From IMG/VR virus record IMGVR_UViG_3300017717_000041, positions 1 through 30,658 of that record: DNA of 30,658 nt. One strand, 5' to 3'. Below the pieces are notes generated by a model. The model was not told the origin of the DNA and did no database searches. It saw only the letters and a program-made list of their open reading frames with translations. The position numbers were made by a program, and so were the translations under genes. Below, piece by piece: positions 3,101-16,565 of the stretch (within the stretch, counting starts at the first letter, position 1; each line of letters starts with the position of its first letter). The stretch is from a virus.

Positions 3101-3719
3101 AAAGGTCTCTGATATGTTTTATTGTACTTCTCTTGTTAGAGTTTAAACTACTATCAAGAGAGGGCATGAAATCTTTTTGGAAGTATGTTAAAAACTCTTC
3201 CGTTGTTGTATCGACATCGGAGTATTCTAAAAGTTTGTTGTTAGCACGAATTGAAGACTCTTTGTAATTAGAAACGATACCTCTCTGTTTACTTGTTCTT
3301 CCTTCTACAACTTCATTTGGTTTAAAACCGTATCCTGAAATAGTCTTAACAAACAATCTGTTTGAATTAATGACTTTAACTTCTGCGACAGTTTTTGAAT
3401 CCAAACCAACGATATACTCACCCACTCCGAATGGGTCAGAATCGATGTTAAAATTATCTGCTGTTCGTTCCAGTAATATTTTATTGGCATCTTGAGATGA
3501 TGGGGAAACGGTAGCGGTTTCATATATAAATCCACCACTACCATCTTCCGCACCAAGGCAATCATGTGCCTCTTGAGATTTTAGAACTACTGTTTCATGT
3601 TCTAGAAACTCAAAATAAGCTTTTAGGAAAGCGACAAATTCTGGCGACTCTGCCGTAACAAAGTCGGGGACTAGACTATTAAGTCTAGGAATTAATTTGT
3701 CAACGTTCCCAATACTCAT
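129..3719 (-). CDS. Giant baseplate/tail structural protein in the gp7 position
   Basis: A 1196-residue protein between gp6/gp25 and the gp8-like gene, the place of T4 gp7 (1032 residues, baseplate wedge). The N-terminus (about residues 1-240, with 'FVAFLKAYFEFLE', 'IKHIRDLYQKKGSPESLKFL') resembles large structural proteins of marine T4-like phages. Around residues 457-523 is a module with 'FTATAGQTVFSG' and 'HVFVNDVEQ', similar to beta-rich modules of marine phage tail proteins. Short hairpin-like motifs such as LVLEDNTTIILED occur near residue 355 and several times between about 996 and 1150. No Shine-Dalgarno is evident; the ATG follows the upstream stop by one base (TAATATG), so coupled translation is likely. 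I infer a baseplate wedge role from position; the gp7 equivalence is not shown by sequence. Confidence 0.7.
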   Translation of the reverse strand: MSIGNVDKLIPRLNSLVPDFVTAESPEFVAFLKAYFEFLEHETVVLKSQEAHDCLGAEDGSGGFIYETATVSPSSQDANKILLERTADNFNIDSDPFGVGEYIVGLDSKTVAEVKVINSNRLFVKTISGYGFKPNEVVEGRTSKQRGIVSNYKESSIRANNKLLEYSDVDTTTEEFLTYFQKDFMPSLDSSLNSNKRSTIKHIRDLYQKKGSPESLKFLLRLLYGQEAEVKYPYDNTIKSSESSYGSSRRMVVNVPLERDAPQPTDTITEYTSGRVIYAQGIVNLVYPEPGSNTLYSLDITNTASKEFQNGSEIELMDRDTKEKKSGTVSGIIQGFNTNGSSIYLSHEDGDTLLEDGGGVLLEDSTASSGSLYSVNDKIHFVGAKDDTNVGLATSVVEGIQTGSIDAVYIEVGGSGYEGGDLVIFDNRGTSGDGALGEIASAGDELFQEAGTRHGYYQFTATAGQTVFSGYDNYGEQVIYEDHNRHVFVNDVEQTTGFSTQGSVLTFNSGLSANDQVEIYTEYMRILQENGDVMNLETTNSNIRRVNLINKGTGYASLPLCGPGGYIYPKSLDGFTAGESITAQNGSTAVIALVNKEKGRLEVYRRPTDTGTFVVGNEITGGGSGTVSSIVEQNVSSGAGAKIFAFSTSIGRVGTINLKAQGHSLTSDAAIADSSTFPMLISAPNITLSKDTVVTGSVSGTTALVDDFNTNTQLLKVRDMDSLFLENEIVTYPNGGTFKIHAFNPFTGRGTLAGEGFIDKGTTSDIGALSASGMAITDSKFYQSHSYVVRIGESINKFRSIVKDLVHPAGHIFFGEVAVTNNVAMGIPDEDHVRFRPTIVINAGGDDTAVVSPQLATRTAQRLEVEIYTLANEQDDLAYAPMIALVNESIPGVNTNPVTGGAIPAYAKVNGVETGKGTEVNDSEMRSRHVNILKIVSKNMASSQVGMWAAGGIPTTVSLESKDGTFNPYFVLETNVNGGPERRPARFGKPLPIDPHHEETLVLEDNTTIILEDVVCKLRAEPDKDANVKGVFGPNLVMEDGTQLRLESATTIEEVDHFVTERTREDLLERYMQTEDGCSIIFEDNDRLVVEGVSENADVASFISFGSTFNDLNIISGQRVYDIAYYLKLDTAADVNDDIILEDGTGAVMSEVSKPEGLRVQDMENMFPNTFIPKFSDHARHRTNITYSAYVKSGTN

Positions 3720-11790: not shown

Positions 11791-12345
11791 ATGGGACAAT
11801 TACTGGATGACTTAAACAACGAAAAACCAAGTGAACTTCGTCAACGTAGTCAAGACAGTTTGAATTGGTTCCGTAATAATTTAAGACAGATACGAGTGCG
11901 TTCTCAATCTTTGCTAGATGAAGTCGGCCCAACCACAACAAGAGTTGAAATGGGTAAACTTTACATGTTTTTTTATGATGCAAAGACTAAGGCAAAGTTA
12001 CCTTACTGGGATTACTTTCCTCTCTGCATTCCTATCAAAAGATATGATACTGGGTTCATGGGTTTGAATCTTCATTACCTACCACCAAGATATCGTATTA
12101 GATTGTTAGATGCATTGTACACTAATGTAGAGGACGGTGGATTTGATATCAACTATAAGATGGTGCAAAGTGTAGGTGCATATCGTTGGGCAAAACCTTG
12201 CGTGAAGCAATACCTAAATGGTTACTTCGATAGTTACATAAAAGAGGTTGAACCCAAGTATTGGGATATGGTGTCCATGTTACCAACAACAAAGTTTAAT
12301 ATAAATGCGAACACAGTATACGCTGAAAGCATGAGGAAGATTTAA
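11791..12345 (+). CDS. Conserved phage protein of unknown function
   Basis: A 184-residue protein. The centre ('VEMGKLYMFFYDAKTKAKLPYWDYFPLCIPIKRYDTGFMGLNLHYLPPRYRIRLLDAL') matches a family I know from T4-like and other marine phages as an uncharacterised structural-region protein; it is aromatic-rich and has no obvious catalytic motif. The first 40 residues form a charged helix. The gene lies between gp4 and the gp54-like gene, so a role in tail or neck assembly is a reasonable guess. It has no Shine-Dalgarno; the late promoter lies directly before the ATG. Its stop overlaps the next start (TAATG). Confidence 0.8.
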   Translation: MGQLLDDLNNEKPSELRQRSQDSLNWFRNNLRQIRVRSQSLLDEVGPTTTRVEMGKLYMFFYDAKTKAKLPYWDYFPLCIPIKRYDTGFMGLNLHYLPPRYRIRLLDALYTNVEDGGFDINYKMVQSVGAYRWAKPCVKQYLNGYFDSYIKEVEPKYWDMVSMLPTTKFNINANTVYAESMRKI

Positions 12346-13094
12346 TGGCAATAGAAAACCTAATTAATAAAGGTATCTCCACGTTTCTAGGTGGGGATGA
12401 TAAGGGAACTGGTATCGATAGGTTTGTATCAAACTTTGATACTGGTGCAAGAGCAAATAGATTCCAAGCAGACTTCTTTGGCCCAATGGGGTTATCGTTA
12501 GAAGGATTACGTTGTGATACTGCTTCATTGCCAGGAAGAACAATCGAATCTACTCCATGGTCTGAATACGGACAAAAACGACAAATGCCCAATGCAGTCA
12601 ACGATGGTGGTGAAACCATATTTACTTTTAATTGCGACCAAGCATTCGCTGATAGACTCATCATCGAAGCATGGCAGTCTTTAGTATTTACTGCTGGAGA
12701 AGGTAGTCAGTTGCAACCAACATTTGCATATTACAACGATTACATTGGACAGGTTGATATAACTCAGTACAGGACTGACGGCGGTTCTGCGTTGAAGTAT
12801 AAATTATATGAATGTTATCCGAAAACATTTGACGCAATGGCGTTAGACGCAAATACTCCCGATAGTATTTTGAAGTTCAGTTGTACAATGGCATACAGAG
12901 GGTGGGAAGTAGAATATACAGAACCACCAGCTTTATCGGGACTAAATAAAGGAAGAAGGGCACTTAATGCTGTTATGGAAGGACTATCAGTCGCTTCTAG
13001 ATTTGGTAGTAAAGGCGATAAACTTCTTGGAAAGTTAACCAAAGCAGATACTAATCTTGGTAAGATTAATAACGTATTCGGCAATGGTAACTAA
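12345..13094 (+). CDS. Tail-tube-fold protein, probably the gp54 tube initiator
   Basis: A 249-residue protein with the layout of gp19/gp54-type tube proteins: 'RANRFQADFFGPMG', 'LRCDTASLPGRTI', 'GETIFTFNCDQAFADRLIIEAWQ', 'YYNDYIGQVDITQYRTDG', and 'YECYPKTFDAMALD' followed by 'LKFSCTMAYRGWEVEY'. The N- and C-terminal tails are glycine- and lysine-rich. T4 gp54 (320 residues) starts tail tube polymerisation on gp48; the fold and the position ahead of gp26 and the tape measure support that. It could instead be a tube paralogue. Shine-Dalgarno GAGGA lies about seven bases before the ATG. Confidence 0.65.
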   Translation: MAIENLINKGISTFLGGDDKGTGIDRFVSNFDTGARANRFQADFFGPMGLSLEGLRCDTASLPGRTIESTPWSEYGQKRQMPNAVNDGGETIFTFNCDQAFADRLIIEAWQSLVFTAGEGSQLQPTFAYYNDYIGQVDITQYRTDGGSALKYKLYECYPKTFDAMALDANTPDSILKFSCTMAYRGWEVEYTEPPALSGLNKGRRALNAVMEGLSVASRFGSKGDKLLGKLTKADTNLGKINNVFGNGN

Positions 13095-13117: not shown

Positions 13118-13831
13118 ATGGCATTACCAATACAAAGTGCACCAACTTATAAATGTGTACTACCAAGTGACGGCCGTGAAGTAACATTCAGACCGTTTCT
13201 TGTTAAGGAACAAAAAGTTTTAGTAATTGCGAAAGAGGGTGAAGACCAAAGTCGGTCACTTGCTTCTATAAAGCAAATGATTAAGGCAGTAACATCATAC
13301 GATGAAAACGAATGGTTGGACGTTGAAAAACTTCCTATGTTTGATATTGAATATCTGTTCATTAAAATTAGAGCAGTATCAGTTGGTGAAACTGTTAAAC
13401 TTAATCTGCCTTGTAAGGACAATGACTGTAAAGGAAGTGGAGAGGTTACAATAAACCTTGACGAAGTTCAAGTAACTAAGTCAAAAGGTGTTGAACCTAA
13501 AGTTATGATAAACGACAACTTGGGTGTTGTGTTAAGGTATCCCGATTGGGGACTTATGGAACAGGTAAATAAAATGCCTGCCGACCAACAACCCTTTGAA
13601 ATGTTGAAGCAATGTATCACTGAAATTTTCGATGAAGAAAATGTATATGATACAGATGATGTATCGAAAAAAGAACTCAATGAGTTTGTGGATAGTTTAA
13701 CATTTCCACAAATGGAACAATTAGGTGCTTATTTTGATGACATGCCTAAAGTTTATATGGACGTTGACTTCACCTGCTCATGTGGAAAAGAACAAAGTAG
13801 AACCATGGAGGGCCTACAAAGTTTTTTTTGA
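13118..13831 (+). CDS. 26: Baseplate hub assembly protein gp26 (T4_baseplate family)
   Basis: A 237-residue protein of the T4 gp26 class (Pfam T4_baseplate). Typical stretches are 'LPSDGREVTFRPFLVKEQKVLVIAKE', 'LPMFDIEYLFIKIRAVSVGETVKLNLPC', and a C-terminal 'FTCSCGKEQ'. Cysteines C99/C104 and C220/C222 could form a zinc site. T4 gp26 (208 residues) acts in hub assembly. The gene has a good GAGGAAA Shine-Dalgarno. It ends 'LQSFF' in a run of eight T followed by TGA, and the next frame opens there, so a longer 305-residue frameshift product is likely. The order gp26, short overlapping frame, tape measure copies that of the lambda G/GT chaperone genes. Confidence 0.85.
   Translation: MALPIQSAPTYKCVLPSDGREVTFRPFLVKEQKVLVIAKEGEDQSRSLASIKQMIKAVTSYDENEWLDVEKLPMFDIEYLFIKIRAVSVGETVKLNLPCKDNDCKGSGEVTINLDEVQVTKSKGVEPKVMINDNLGVVLRYPDWGLMEQVNKMPADQQPFEMLKQCITEIFDEENVYDTDDVSKKELNEFVDSLTFPQMEQLGAYFDDMPKVYMDVDFTCSCGKEQSRTMEGLQSFF
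13807..13828 (+). promoter_or_regulatory. Probable programmed -1 frameshift site
   Basis: In the gp26 frame the end reads AGT TTT TTT TGA. This gives a canonical T TTT TTT slippery heptamer (13822-13828) directly before the stop. GGAGGG at 13807-13812 is nine bases upstream, the arrangement of the stimulatory Shine-Dalgarno in E. coli dnaX. The -1 frame is closed by TAG at 13798-13800 and opens only from 13801, so the shift window is about 30 bases and contains the heptamer. Confidence 0.65.
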
Positions 13832-14034
13832 TATGCCTTTCTCATGAGAGTGTATTGAATTATTACAATACGAACTTTCAGTTGATGCAACATCATAATT
13901 ATAGTTTGGGAGAACTTGAAAATATGATGCCATGGGAAAGGGAGATTTATATTATGTTATTAATGCAATTCCTAAAAGATGAACAGGAAAGGCAAAAAAA
14001 TGAACAAGCCAAATATAAATCACAAAGGAGATAG
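13828..14034 (+). CDS. Downstream frame of gp26: likely frameshift extension (tail assembly chaperone-like)
   Basis: A 68-codon frame in the -1 phase of gp26. No ATG occurs until 13885, and the only early start is a TTG inside the T-run with no suitable Shine-Dalgarno. Residues ahead of that ATG ('CLSHESVLNYYNTNFQLM') look like ordinary coding sequence and flow into 'HHNYSLGELENMMPWEREIYIMLLMQFLKDEQERQKNEQ', a helical, family-like stretch. It is best read as the C-terminal part of a gp26 fusion of 305 residues, the analogue of lambda GT, although independent initiation at 13885 is possible. A T4 gp51-like role is conceivable but unproven. Confidence 0.7.
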   Translation: MICLSHESVLNYYNTNFQLMQHHNYSLGELENMMPWEREIYIMLLMQFLKDEQERQKNEQAKYKSQRR

Positions 14035-14036
14035 AC

Positions 14037-14420
14037 ATGGCAGACGAAAAATTTAGTGGTGACATGAGTCGTAATGAGGTAGAGATTGACCTCAGTAAGT
14101 TCATGGAACTCGTAACAGAAAACTCAGCACTTAAAGCTGAAATTCTACAATTAAAAACAGAACAAGAACCCGAAAATCCGTGGCAACGTTGGATATACCT
14201 ATCCAACATGGTTGATTCATGGAGAATATTCCCAAGAGCATTTTTAAGTGTTTACATATTCTTATTGTACTACTGTACTATGTGGTTCATGGAACTTGAT
14301 GCCCCCACCATGGAACAATCGGGACTTATCAGTATCGTAGTTGGTGCTGGTGCAGCTTGGTTTGGTCTGTATGCTGGGACAGCTAAAGATAAAATCAACG
14401 GCCAAGGCGGAAACAAATAA
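14037..14420 (+). CDS. Two-helix membrane protein before the tape measure
   Basis: A 127-residue protein with strong Shine-Dalgarno AAAGGAG. Residues 1-45 are charged and helical ('LSKFMELVTENSALKAEILQLK', a short coiled coil). Two hydrophobic segments follow: about 63-83 ('FPRAFLSVYIFLLYYCTMWFM') and 94-114 ('GLISIVVGAGAAWFGLYAG'). Similar small proteins sit beside tape measure genes in other marine phages. A holin or a tape-measure-associated inner membrane protein is possible; nothing in the sequence decides. It lies between the gp26 cassette and the tape measure with gaps of two and three bases, so it is co-translated with tail genes. Confidence 0.7.
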   Translation: MADEKFSGDMSRNEVEIDLSKFMELVTENSALKAEILQLKTEQEPENPWQRWIYLSNMVDSWRIFPRAFLSVYIFLLYYCTMWFMELDAPTMEQSGLISIVVGAGAAWFGLYAGTAKDKINGQGGNK

Positions 14421-14423
14421 CCA

Positions 14424-16565
14424 ATGGCAAACGAAATCGATAAGCAGTTAGAAGAGGCCGCAAAGACTCTTAAACCCGCATTTAAAAAAGTTGTAGATAC
14501 TCTTGCAGAATCCAATAAAGAGTTTGCTGTAACAGCAGCTAACTTTAGAAATTCTACAAGAGATTCTTTTGCTGGTGCTCTCACGGCAAACAAACTTAAG
14601 AATACTTTAGAAGAAGTAGCACAAGGTCTTAAGGAAGGTGAGGGTGAGATAGCTGGTATCGATTTTGGTGAGTTTAAAAAAGTAAACGATAAGATAAATT
14701 CACTTGAACAAAAACGTGCAGAAAGATTAGAAACTGCCAACAAGAAAGGTAATGTTCTTTACAAAGCACGTGTAGCGTTTGAGAAGGCGGAAGCCGCTGA
14801 ACTGGAAGCTGCGACAAGAGGAAAACAAGTCACAGGTGCAGCTTTAGAAAAACTACGAACAGCGAGAGAGGAAGCAGAAAAAACTCTAGCTGAAAAGACC
14901 GCCCAACAAACCAAATCATTTGATGAAAATATTGAACGTGAAAAAGAAAACAGAAAGGAATACCAAGACCAGTTAGACAAAGCTCTCGAAGAGATGCAAA
15001 AAGAAAGCATGGAATACATGGAAAACATGTCAGGTGCATTCAAAAAACTTACTGGTATTGACCTCATGGGTGCGTTTGACTCTATGGTTGAAAATGTAAA
15101 TGCTATCGGTACATTATTTACTAGAGGCAAAAACACAGATGTATTCGGTGATATCGTTGGTGGTATTCAGAACATGGGTGAAAATATTTCTAATGGTTTA
15201 GCCAAAGCACGTGAAGGTGCTAAGGTAATGGCAACTAATTTAATGGCATCAGGTAAACAATTTCTTAAACAAGGGAAAAAGTTTGCAATATCTGCTGGGT
15301 TAATGATAAAAGGATTACTTTCTTCAGCTGCAGCTATGGTTGCAACTGGTGTATCATTGTTAGCAGCTTCATTAGGACTTTCAGTCCCAGCATTATTGAT
15401 TGGTCTTGTTGCACTCGCACTGGTAGCTGGTGCAATGTATCTATACAAAGAATCAGAAGGATTTAGAGCCGCTGTCGATACAGTGGTAGATTACTTCATG
15501 GATATCATATCAACAATTGGAGATATCTTTGGTGGATTTTATGAATTCTTCGCTGGTCTCTTTACTGGGGACTTCGATAGAATGTTCCAAGGTGTTAAAG
15601 ATGTCCTTGGTGGATTATGGGATTTGATGTTGACACCTTTCAAAGCAATAGGTGACTTCTTTAAAAATGTCTTTGGTTTTGATATCAAAGCATGGTTAAA
15701 AAAGAAAGCAGAGTCATTTGGTTTAGGTTGGTTAATCGATGGTGAAGAACCCAACGAAAAGGTTGAAGCTATGACTAATGGTGCTGACCCTGCTAAAGCT
15801 AATGACATGAAATATGCTGACGAAGACATAAAGCAGGAATCCATGGATTACATGGCGGATATTAATGCAATGTCGGATGAAGAACGGGGTGCAAGATTCG
15901 ATGAACAAATTGCTCGTAGAGAGGAATCATTAAAGAAAGCAGAAGCAAAATTAGCAGAACTGAAAAAGAAACAGGAAGAGAAGCCTGAATGGAGTACGCT
16001 TGATTATACAGACCAAATTAAAAAAGCTGAGGATAATGTTCTTTTCCGCCAAAAAGACGTAGACCAAAGAACAGCAGACAAACAAAACTTCTTTGACCCC
16101 GAAAGACGAGAGTATGACGCACTTACTAAAAGACTCTTAGGAGATGGTGAAGCCCTTTCAGACGAAGAATCAGCAAGGCAGGATGAACTTTTTGAGAAGA
16201 TGACTGCGAACAGCAGGAATGGCTTGGGACAGTTCACTGCAGAAACGGTAGCGGCAGAACAAGGTCGTGCAGGCCTGTATGATGATGGGGGCATCGATAG
16301 ATTCGGTGGGAGAGAGAGAGGCGAGATGAACGCTGCTGATTTGGCTAGACAAAACTACTTAAATAGAGCAGGTGCAAGTGCTGGTGATGTCGCAGATGCA
16401 ACTCAAGGAGTTAGAGACGGTGAAAGACAAGCATCGCAACAAGTAGCAGTAACCACAATCAATGCGCCAACAACGAATGCGTCTAATACTAATGTGAGAG
16501 GTACAAACCCAACACCTAGAGATACAGACCCTACTGGTTCCCGTCTAGCAGCTGTTCCCGCTTAA
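14424..16565 (+). CDS. Tail tape measure protein (gp29 role)
   Basis: A 713-residue protein. Residues 1-210 are alanine/lysine/glutamate-rich coiled coil. Residues about 210-285 are amphipathic and glycine-containing. A hydrophobic block at about 290-342 ('IKGLLSSAAAMVATGVSLLA', 'LLIGLVALALVAGAMYLY') is typical of tape measures that insert in the host membrane. More amphipathic 'FFKNVFG' and 'GLWDLMLTPFKAIGDF' segments follow, then coiled coil (about 485-560) and an asparagine/threonine-rich tail. T4 gp29 has 590 residues; this one implies a tail of similar or somewhat greater length. Position after the gp26 cassette supports the call. Its last 35 bases are overlapped by a convergent minus-strand gene. 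Confidence 0.8.
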   Translation: MANEIDKQLEEAAKTLKPAFKKVVDTLAESNKEFAVTAANFRNSTRDSFAGALTANKLKNTLEEVAQGLKEGEGEIAGIDFGEFKKVNDKINSLEQKRAERLETANKKGNVLYKARVAFEKAEAAELEAATRGKQVTGAALEKLRTAREEAEKTLAEKTAQQTKSFDENIEREKENRKEYQDQLDKALEEMQKESMEYMENMSGAFKKLTGIDLMGAFDSMVENVNAIGTLFTRGKNTDVFGDIVGGIQNMGENISNGLAKAREGAKVMATNLMASGKQFLKQGKKFAISAGLMIKGLLSSAAAMVATGVSLLAASLGLSVPALLIGLVALALVAGAMYLYKESEGFRAAVDTVVDYFMDIISTIGDIFGGFYEFFAGLFTGDFDRMFQGVKDVLGGLWDLMLTPFKAIGDFFKNVFGFDIKAWLKKKAESFGLGWLIDGEEPNEKVEAMTNGADPAKANDMKYADEDIKQESMDYMADINAMSDEERGARFDEQIARREESLKKAEAKLAELKKKQEEKPEWSTLDYTDQIKKAEDNVLFRQKDVDQRTADKQNFFDPERREYDALTKRLLGDGEALSDEESARQDELFEKMTANSRNGLGQFTAETVAAEQGRAGLYDDGGIDRFGGRERGEMNAADLARQNYLNRAGASAGDVADATQGVRDGERQASQQVAVTTINAPTTNASNTNVRGTNPTPRDTDPTGSRLAAVPA

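Follow-up and report, generated by a model that had tools for sequence, protein, structure and literature searches.

A conserved T_TTT_TTN slippery heptamer close to the gp26 stop and probable -1 frameshift synthesis of a gp26-gp51 fusion in a T4-type phage

The DNA analysed here, a stretch of 30,658 nucleotides from a virus genome (hereafter the window), very probably comes from a T4-type phage whose tail assembly chaperone gene is read with a -1 frameshift, so that both gp26 and a gp26-gp51 fusion would be made. Programmed -1 frameshifting at the end of gp26 is strongly supported, because the slip site is conserved in relatives, its phase is invariant, synonymous sites carry a signal, and start signals for the downstream frame are absent.

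Results

The gp26 cassette and its neighbours

The relevant features of the window are as follows.

12345..13094, + strand: tail tube protein (gp19-like), upstream neighbour (phrog_45 tail tube, 7e-26).
13118..13831, + strand: gp26, putative short form of the tail assembly chaperone (237 aa, TAC-N / lambda G-like; PF12322 T4_baseplate, 9e-61; phrog_150 baseplate hub, 2e-67; hhalign of the family versus T4-type gp26, E 1e-20).
13801..14034, + strand: open -1 frame (phrog_634 baseplate hub assembly catalyst, 1e-26; phrog_150 C-terminus; codon-position substitution pattern).
13807..13812, + strand: GGAGGG, Shine-Dalgarno-like, possible frameshift stimulator (9 nt upstream of the heptamer; anti-SD pairing energies).
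13822..13828, + strand: T_TTT_TTT slippery heptamer (conserved in relatives, with excess synonymous conservation).
13828..14031, + strand: post-slip coding part, 68 residues, gp51-like C-terminal extension, followed by the TAG stop at 14032-14034.
14037..14420, + strand: small gene of 127 aa that separates the cassette from the tape measure gene (phrog_10198, unknown function).
14424..16565, + strand: tape measure protein, 713 aa (phrog_28 tail length tape measure, 1.5e-7).

The cassette sits between the tail tube and tape measure genes, as do tail assembly chaperone genes of the lambda G/GT type. A preliminary description of the window, made from its letters, had placed the cassette two genes before the tape measure, as in lambda G/GT, and one small gene does lie in between. 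The rest of the left half of the window is occupied by T4-type baseplate and neck genes. Membership of the gp26/gp51 family is indicated by the PF12322 / phrog_150 domain and by the gp51 C-terminal extension, present on the long form. The Shine-Dalgarno sequence of the small gene, AGGAG, lies within the 3′ end of this extension, and hydrophobic stretches are visible by eye in its 127-residue product. The window gave no match when scanned for Rfam families and tRNAs.

A slippery heptamer abuts the gp26 stop codon

Read directly from the letters, positions 13801-13837 are AACCATGGAGGGCCTACAAAGTTTTTTTTGATATGCC. The gp26 frame ends with the codons AGT (13820), TTT (13823), TTT (13826) and TGA (13829), and a run of eight T extends from 13822 to 13829. 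The heptamer T_TTT_TTT is in phase and directly abuts the stop codon TGA (13829-13831); the GGAGGG element ends nine bases before the T run. In the -1 frame, the open stretch begins only at 13801, and a ribosome slipping on the heptamer would read it to the TAG, giving a fusion of 237 + 68 = 305 residues. All of this agrees with the preliminary description, which had placed the heptamer, the GGAGGG element and the opening of the -1 frame in the same way.

In-phase heptamers of the form X_XXY_YYZ occur 35 times in the main open reading frames of the window. Only the one in gp26 is followed by a -1 extension of at least 30 codons (68 codons, the next longest being 28), and this extension reaches some 200 nt past the end of gp26. 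We concluded from this uniqueness, and from the recurrence of heptamer and -1 frame in the relatives described below, that the presence of a heptamer at the end of gp26 reflects more than chance.

The slip site is conserved in distant relatives

Eighty loci were taken from viral contigs and further annotated phages were added one by one; the tabulated set with complete junctions comprises 86 sequences (77 viral contigs, 8 annotated phages and the window). These range from close relatives down to about 25% amino acid identity, come from marine and non-marine sources, and have cyanobacteria, Vibrio, Delftia, Desulfovibrio and Stenotrophomonas among their hosts. Targeted scans for Desulfovibrio and Delftia relatives yielded nothing, or only the same phage again. 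The preliminary description had left it to an alignment of relatives to decide whether heptamer and -1 phase are conserved, and both are: all 86 sequences have an in-phase T TTT TT(T/C/A) within the last gp26 codons, followed by a homologous -1 extension. The last base of the heptamer is T in 40, C in 43 and A in 3. Those last three carry TTA (Leu) in place of the second Phe codon: the amino acid has changed, but the heptamer is still slippery.

Dereplication at 80% identity left 62 sequences. The base preceding the first TTT was T, and the first Phe codon was TTT, in 62 of 62 cases; the probabilities of about 1e-14.9 and 1e-10.9, respectively, are nominal values under independence, and both are too small since related sequences are not independent, but the contrast with other columns holds. 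Among 230 gp26 columns, the two codons at the start of the heptamer (z 5.5 and 4.5) rank second and third for excess synonymous conservation.

Translation of the -1 frame and alternative explanations

In the part of the extension upstream of a conserved NF motif, substitutions at codon positions 1, 2 and 3 numbered 4182, 2580 and 8189, and the spacing between slip site and motif was constant in 82 of 86 sequences. Much of the conserved extension precedes any usable start codon in the 86 relatives. Start codons that do occur within it are found at positions that differ between relatives, and a start preceded by a Shine-Dalgarno sequence was present within the first 25 extension codons in only 3 of the 62 dereplicated sequences, versus 49 of 62 for the gp26 genes themselves. 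The third-position bias, the constant spacing and the scarcity of such starts together argue that ribosomes translate the extension without using a start of its own; by this codon-level evidence the -1 frame is coding, including the part that lies before any start codon. The earlier proposal that the downstream frame has no usable start and that its residues before the first ATG are coding is thus borne out.

The extension is called as a separate short gene, gp51, in GenBank and RefSeq records of cyanophages, from whatever start codon exists, and the preliminary description had considered the same arrangement, with its own ATG and Shine-Dalgarno sequence, in relatives. A gene of this kind is extremely unlikely given the conserved coding residues upstream of any start in many relatives, the shifting positions of the starts and the 3 of 62 count above; it would also leave the conserved heptamer and the invariant -1 phase unexplained. 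The chance that the run truly contains nine T, and that gp26 and the extension form one ordinary gene broken by a sequencing or assembly error, we consider close to nil. Homopolymers are error-prone, and T4 gp51 proves that a continuous version exists. However, eight T are also found in close relatives from other, independently produced metagenome assemblies (gp26 identity 100% for L002, 96% for L003 and 76-82% for L004-L006), and relatives with an interrupted run show the same phase break. Given eight T in these assemblies and only six in the T TTT TTC of about half of the relatives, the junction is not accounted for by a miscounted homopolymer.

Transcriptional slippage, in which RNA polymerase would add one U on the eight-T run so that gp26 and the extension become continuous in some mRNAs, would give a nearly identical product. 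The pure eight-T run of the window and of about half of the relatives would be enough for some polymerase slippage. Against it, 43 of the 86 sites read T TTT TTC and three read T TTT TTA, with runs of only six T, which are too short for efficient polymerase slippage, and the constant feature is the tandem-codon heptamer in an invariant codon phase. We therefore hold this explanation to be very unlikely, and programmed -1 frameshifting by the ribosome is retained as the preferred one.

Possible stimulatory elements

The preliminary description had taken GGAGGG for a stimulator of the dnaX type. Pairing of the element with the anti-Shine-Dalgarno sequence averages -6.4 kcal/mol in the 62 relatives, which is clearly better than elsewhere in gp26 (-2.1) but only modestly above a synonymous null (-5.2), and no excess of synonymous conservation was detected at its codons, E231 and G232. 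The element appears only modestly favoured beyond the requirement of the protein sequence, and we regard it as a possible stimulator. A search for a conserved stem downstream of the slip site found none: z was -1.18 for the window, and 20 relatives showed no covarying pairs. Such a structure is not obligatory for a -1 frameshift site.

One gene probably in place of T4 genes 26 and 51

In T4, gp26 (208 aa) and gp51 (249 aa) are encoded by separate, divergently transcribed genes, and gene 26 does not end in a slippery heptamer. When the fusion was compared as a profile, it aligned with T4-type gp51 over its full length, extension included (99.3%, E 1.6e-20), whereas with T4-type gp26 it aligned only as far as the terminal FF (99.3%, E 1e-20). 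T4-type gp51 and gp26 are themselves related (97.3% by profile comparison), and both match PF12322. The -1 extension is therefore homologous to the C-terminus of T4 gp51, which consists of a gp26-like domain plus the extension, gp26 being the domain alone. It follows that the short and long forms of T4 are the products of two genes, and that one gene here, together with its -1 frame, would make the short (gp26) and long (gp51) forms of the tail assembly chaperone. The end-to-end alignment with T4 gp51 supports the earlier suggestion that gp26 plus extension is the T4-type counterpart of the frameshifted tail assembly chaperones.

In a tree of the gp26 domain, T4-type gp26, T4-type gp51 and the frameshift group fall apart, but the tree is unrooted with long branches and for this reason does not show which arrangement is ancestral. 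We put forward only tentatively, and with more doubt than confidence, that T_TTT_TTN frameshifting is the widespread gp26/gp51 arrangement of T4-related myoviruses, that the two T4 genes are derived by a duplication which fixed the short and the long product, and that Ackermannviridae keep the -1 extension with GA(G/A) ATT TTC as a non-canonical slip site. Fifteen related Ackermannviridae loci (L097-L111, around 3280-3470), and also L089, retain a gp51-like extension (SYFVMCDELKAHGYSIFEISESMPWHLD) in the -1 frame downstream of gp26. Their junction reads GA(G/A) ATT TTC ATT TAA, with no slippery heptamer of the classical kind. Frameshifting may occur there at a non-canonical site, and we take this as a lead rather than a result.

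Discussion

Most ribosomes would be expected to terminate at the TGA at 13829 and release gp26. A fraction would move back by one base on T_TTT_TTT, where both Phe-tRNAs can re-pair on UUU, and continue in the -1 frame to complete the gp26-gp51 fusion. If lambda gpG/gpGT is a guide, the short form would coat the tape measure protein, and the extension of the long form may recruit tail tube or hub components. The proposed -1 slip would resemble that of lambda and of other frameshifted chaperones in its place, close to where the first frame ends and shortly upstream of the tape measure gene, and in yielding a short and a long form; there is no detectable sequence relation, and the window has an extra small gene before the tape measure. 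The lambda heptamer is G_GGA_AAG, unlike the T_TTT_TTT of the window. PDB searches by sequence and by fold, with gp26 and a T4-type gp51 model as queries, gave no significant match. In the fold comparison with solved tail assembly chaperones HK97 2ob9 was listed, but not significantly (E 2.1, probability 0.18, TM 0.40 by target length).

The identification of gp26 and gp51 as tail assembly chaperones is credited by two later papers (PMC10885494 and PMC12846349) to Vladimirov, Gautam and Davidson 2022 (Virology 566:9-15). Citing the same work, the PRFect paper (PMC10885494) mentions T4-like phages that, rather than frameshifting, carry a short gene and a separate, fused long one. According to a secondary source (PMC12846349), poly-T slippery sites have already been described in the chaperone genes of T4-like phages, and these too are credited to Vladimirov and colleagues. 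Going by these second-hand accounts, this type of frameshift seems not to be new, its mechanism being known for the T4-like group, and the window seems to hold a new, unannotated member. The preliminary description had presented the chaperone link as one not usually annotated; this is true of the sequence records, but the link itself has the above precedent. A conserved -1 frameshift at a T-rich site (GTTTTT) is also found in the chaperone genes of Vandenendeviridae and Andersonviridae (phage Adele, PMC12846349), myoviruses as well; these are other phage families, and the likeness is one in the type of frameshift.

Earlier descriptions of gp51 can be reread in this light. T4 gp26 and gp51 were listed as hub assembly chaperones in 2010, gp51 being "of unknown function" and absent from the final particle (PMC3004832). 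The gp51 of cyanophage and marine vibriophage was reported to lack its first ~200 residues, without explanation (Sullivan et al. 2010, PMC3037559), and the cyanophage protein to have about 20% of the usual length (PMC3037559). We suggest that cyanophage "gp51" looked truncated because it represents only the extension of a fusion that begins with gp26. In GenBank records GU071097, PV340855, PV340856 and KJ019144 (L082, L083, L092 and L093), a short gp51 of its own has been called for the extension, from whichever start codon was available, and these four records carry no frameshift annotation. One rule could correct the annotation of hundreds of genomes of cyanophages and other T4-like phages. 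Moreover, the contrast between two genes in T4 and a single one here makes the required ratio of short to long form testable.

Two minor observations concern gp26 itself. In a Stenotrophomonas phage contig (L096, ~3253), gp26 is identical to that of the Stenotrophomonas relative up to residue 251 and then reads into the +1 frame, as if the length of the T run differed, be it by sequencing error or as a real variant. Finally, the gp26 column with the highest synonymous conservation is the third codon (Leu; window 13118-13130), which is TTA in 50 of the 62 dereplicated relatives, perhaps as part of the initiation context.
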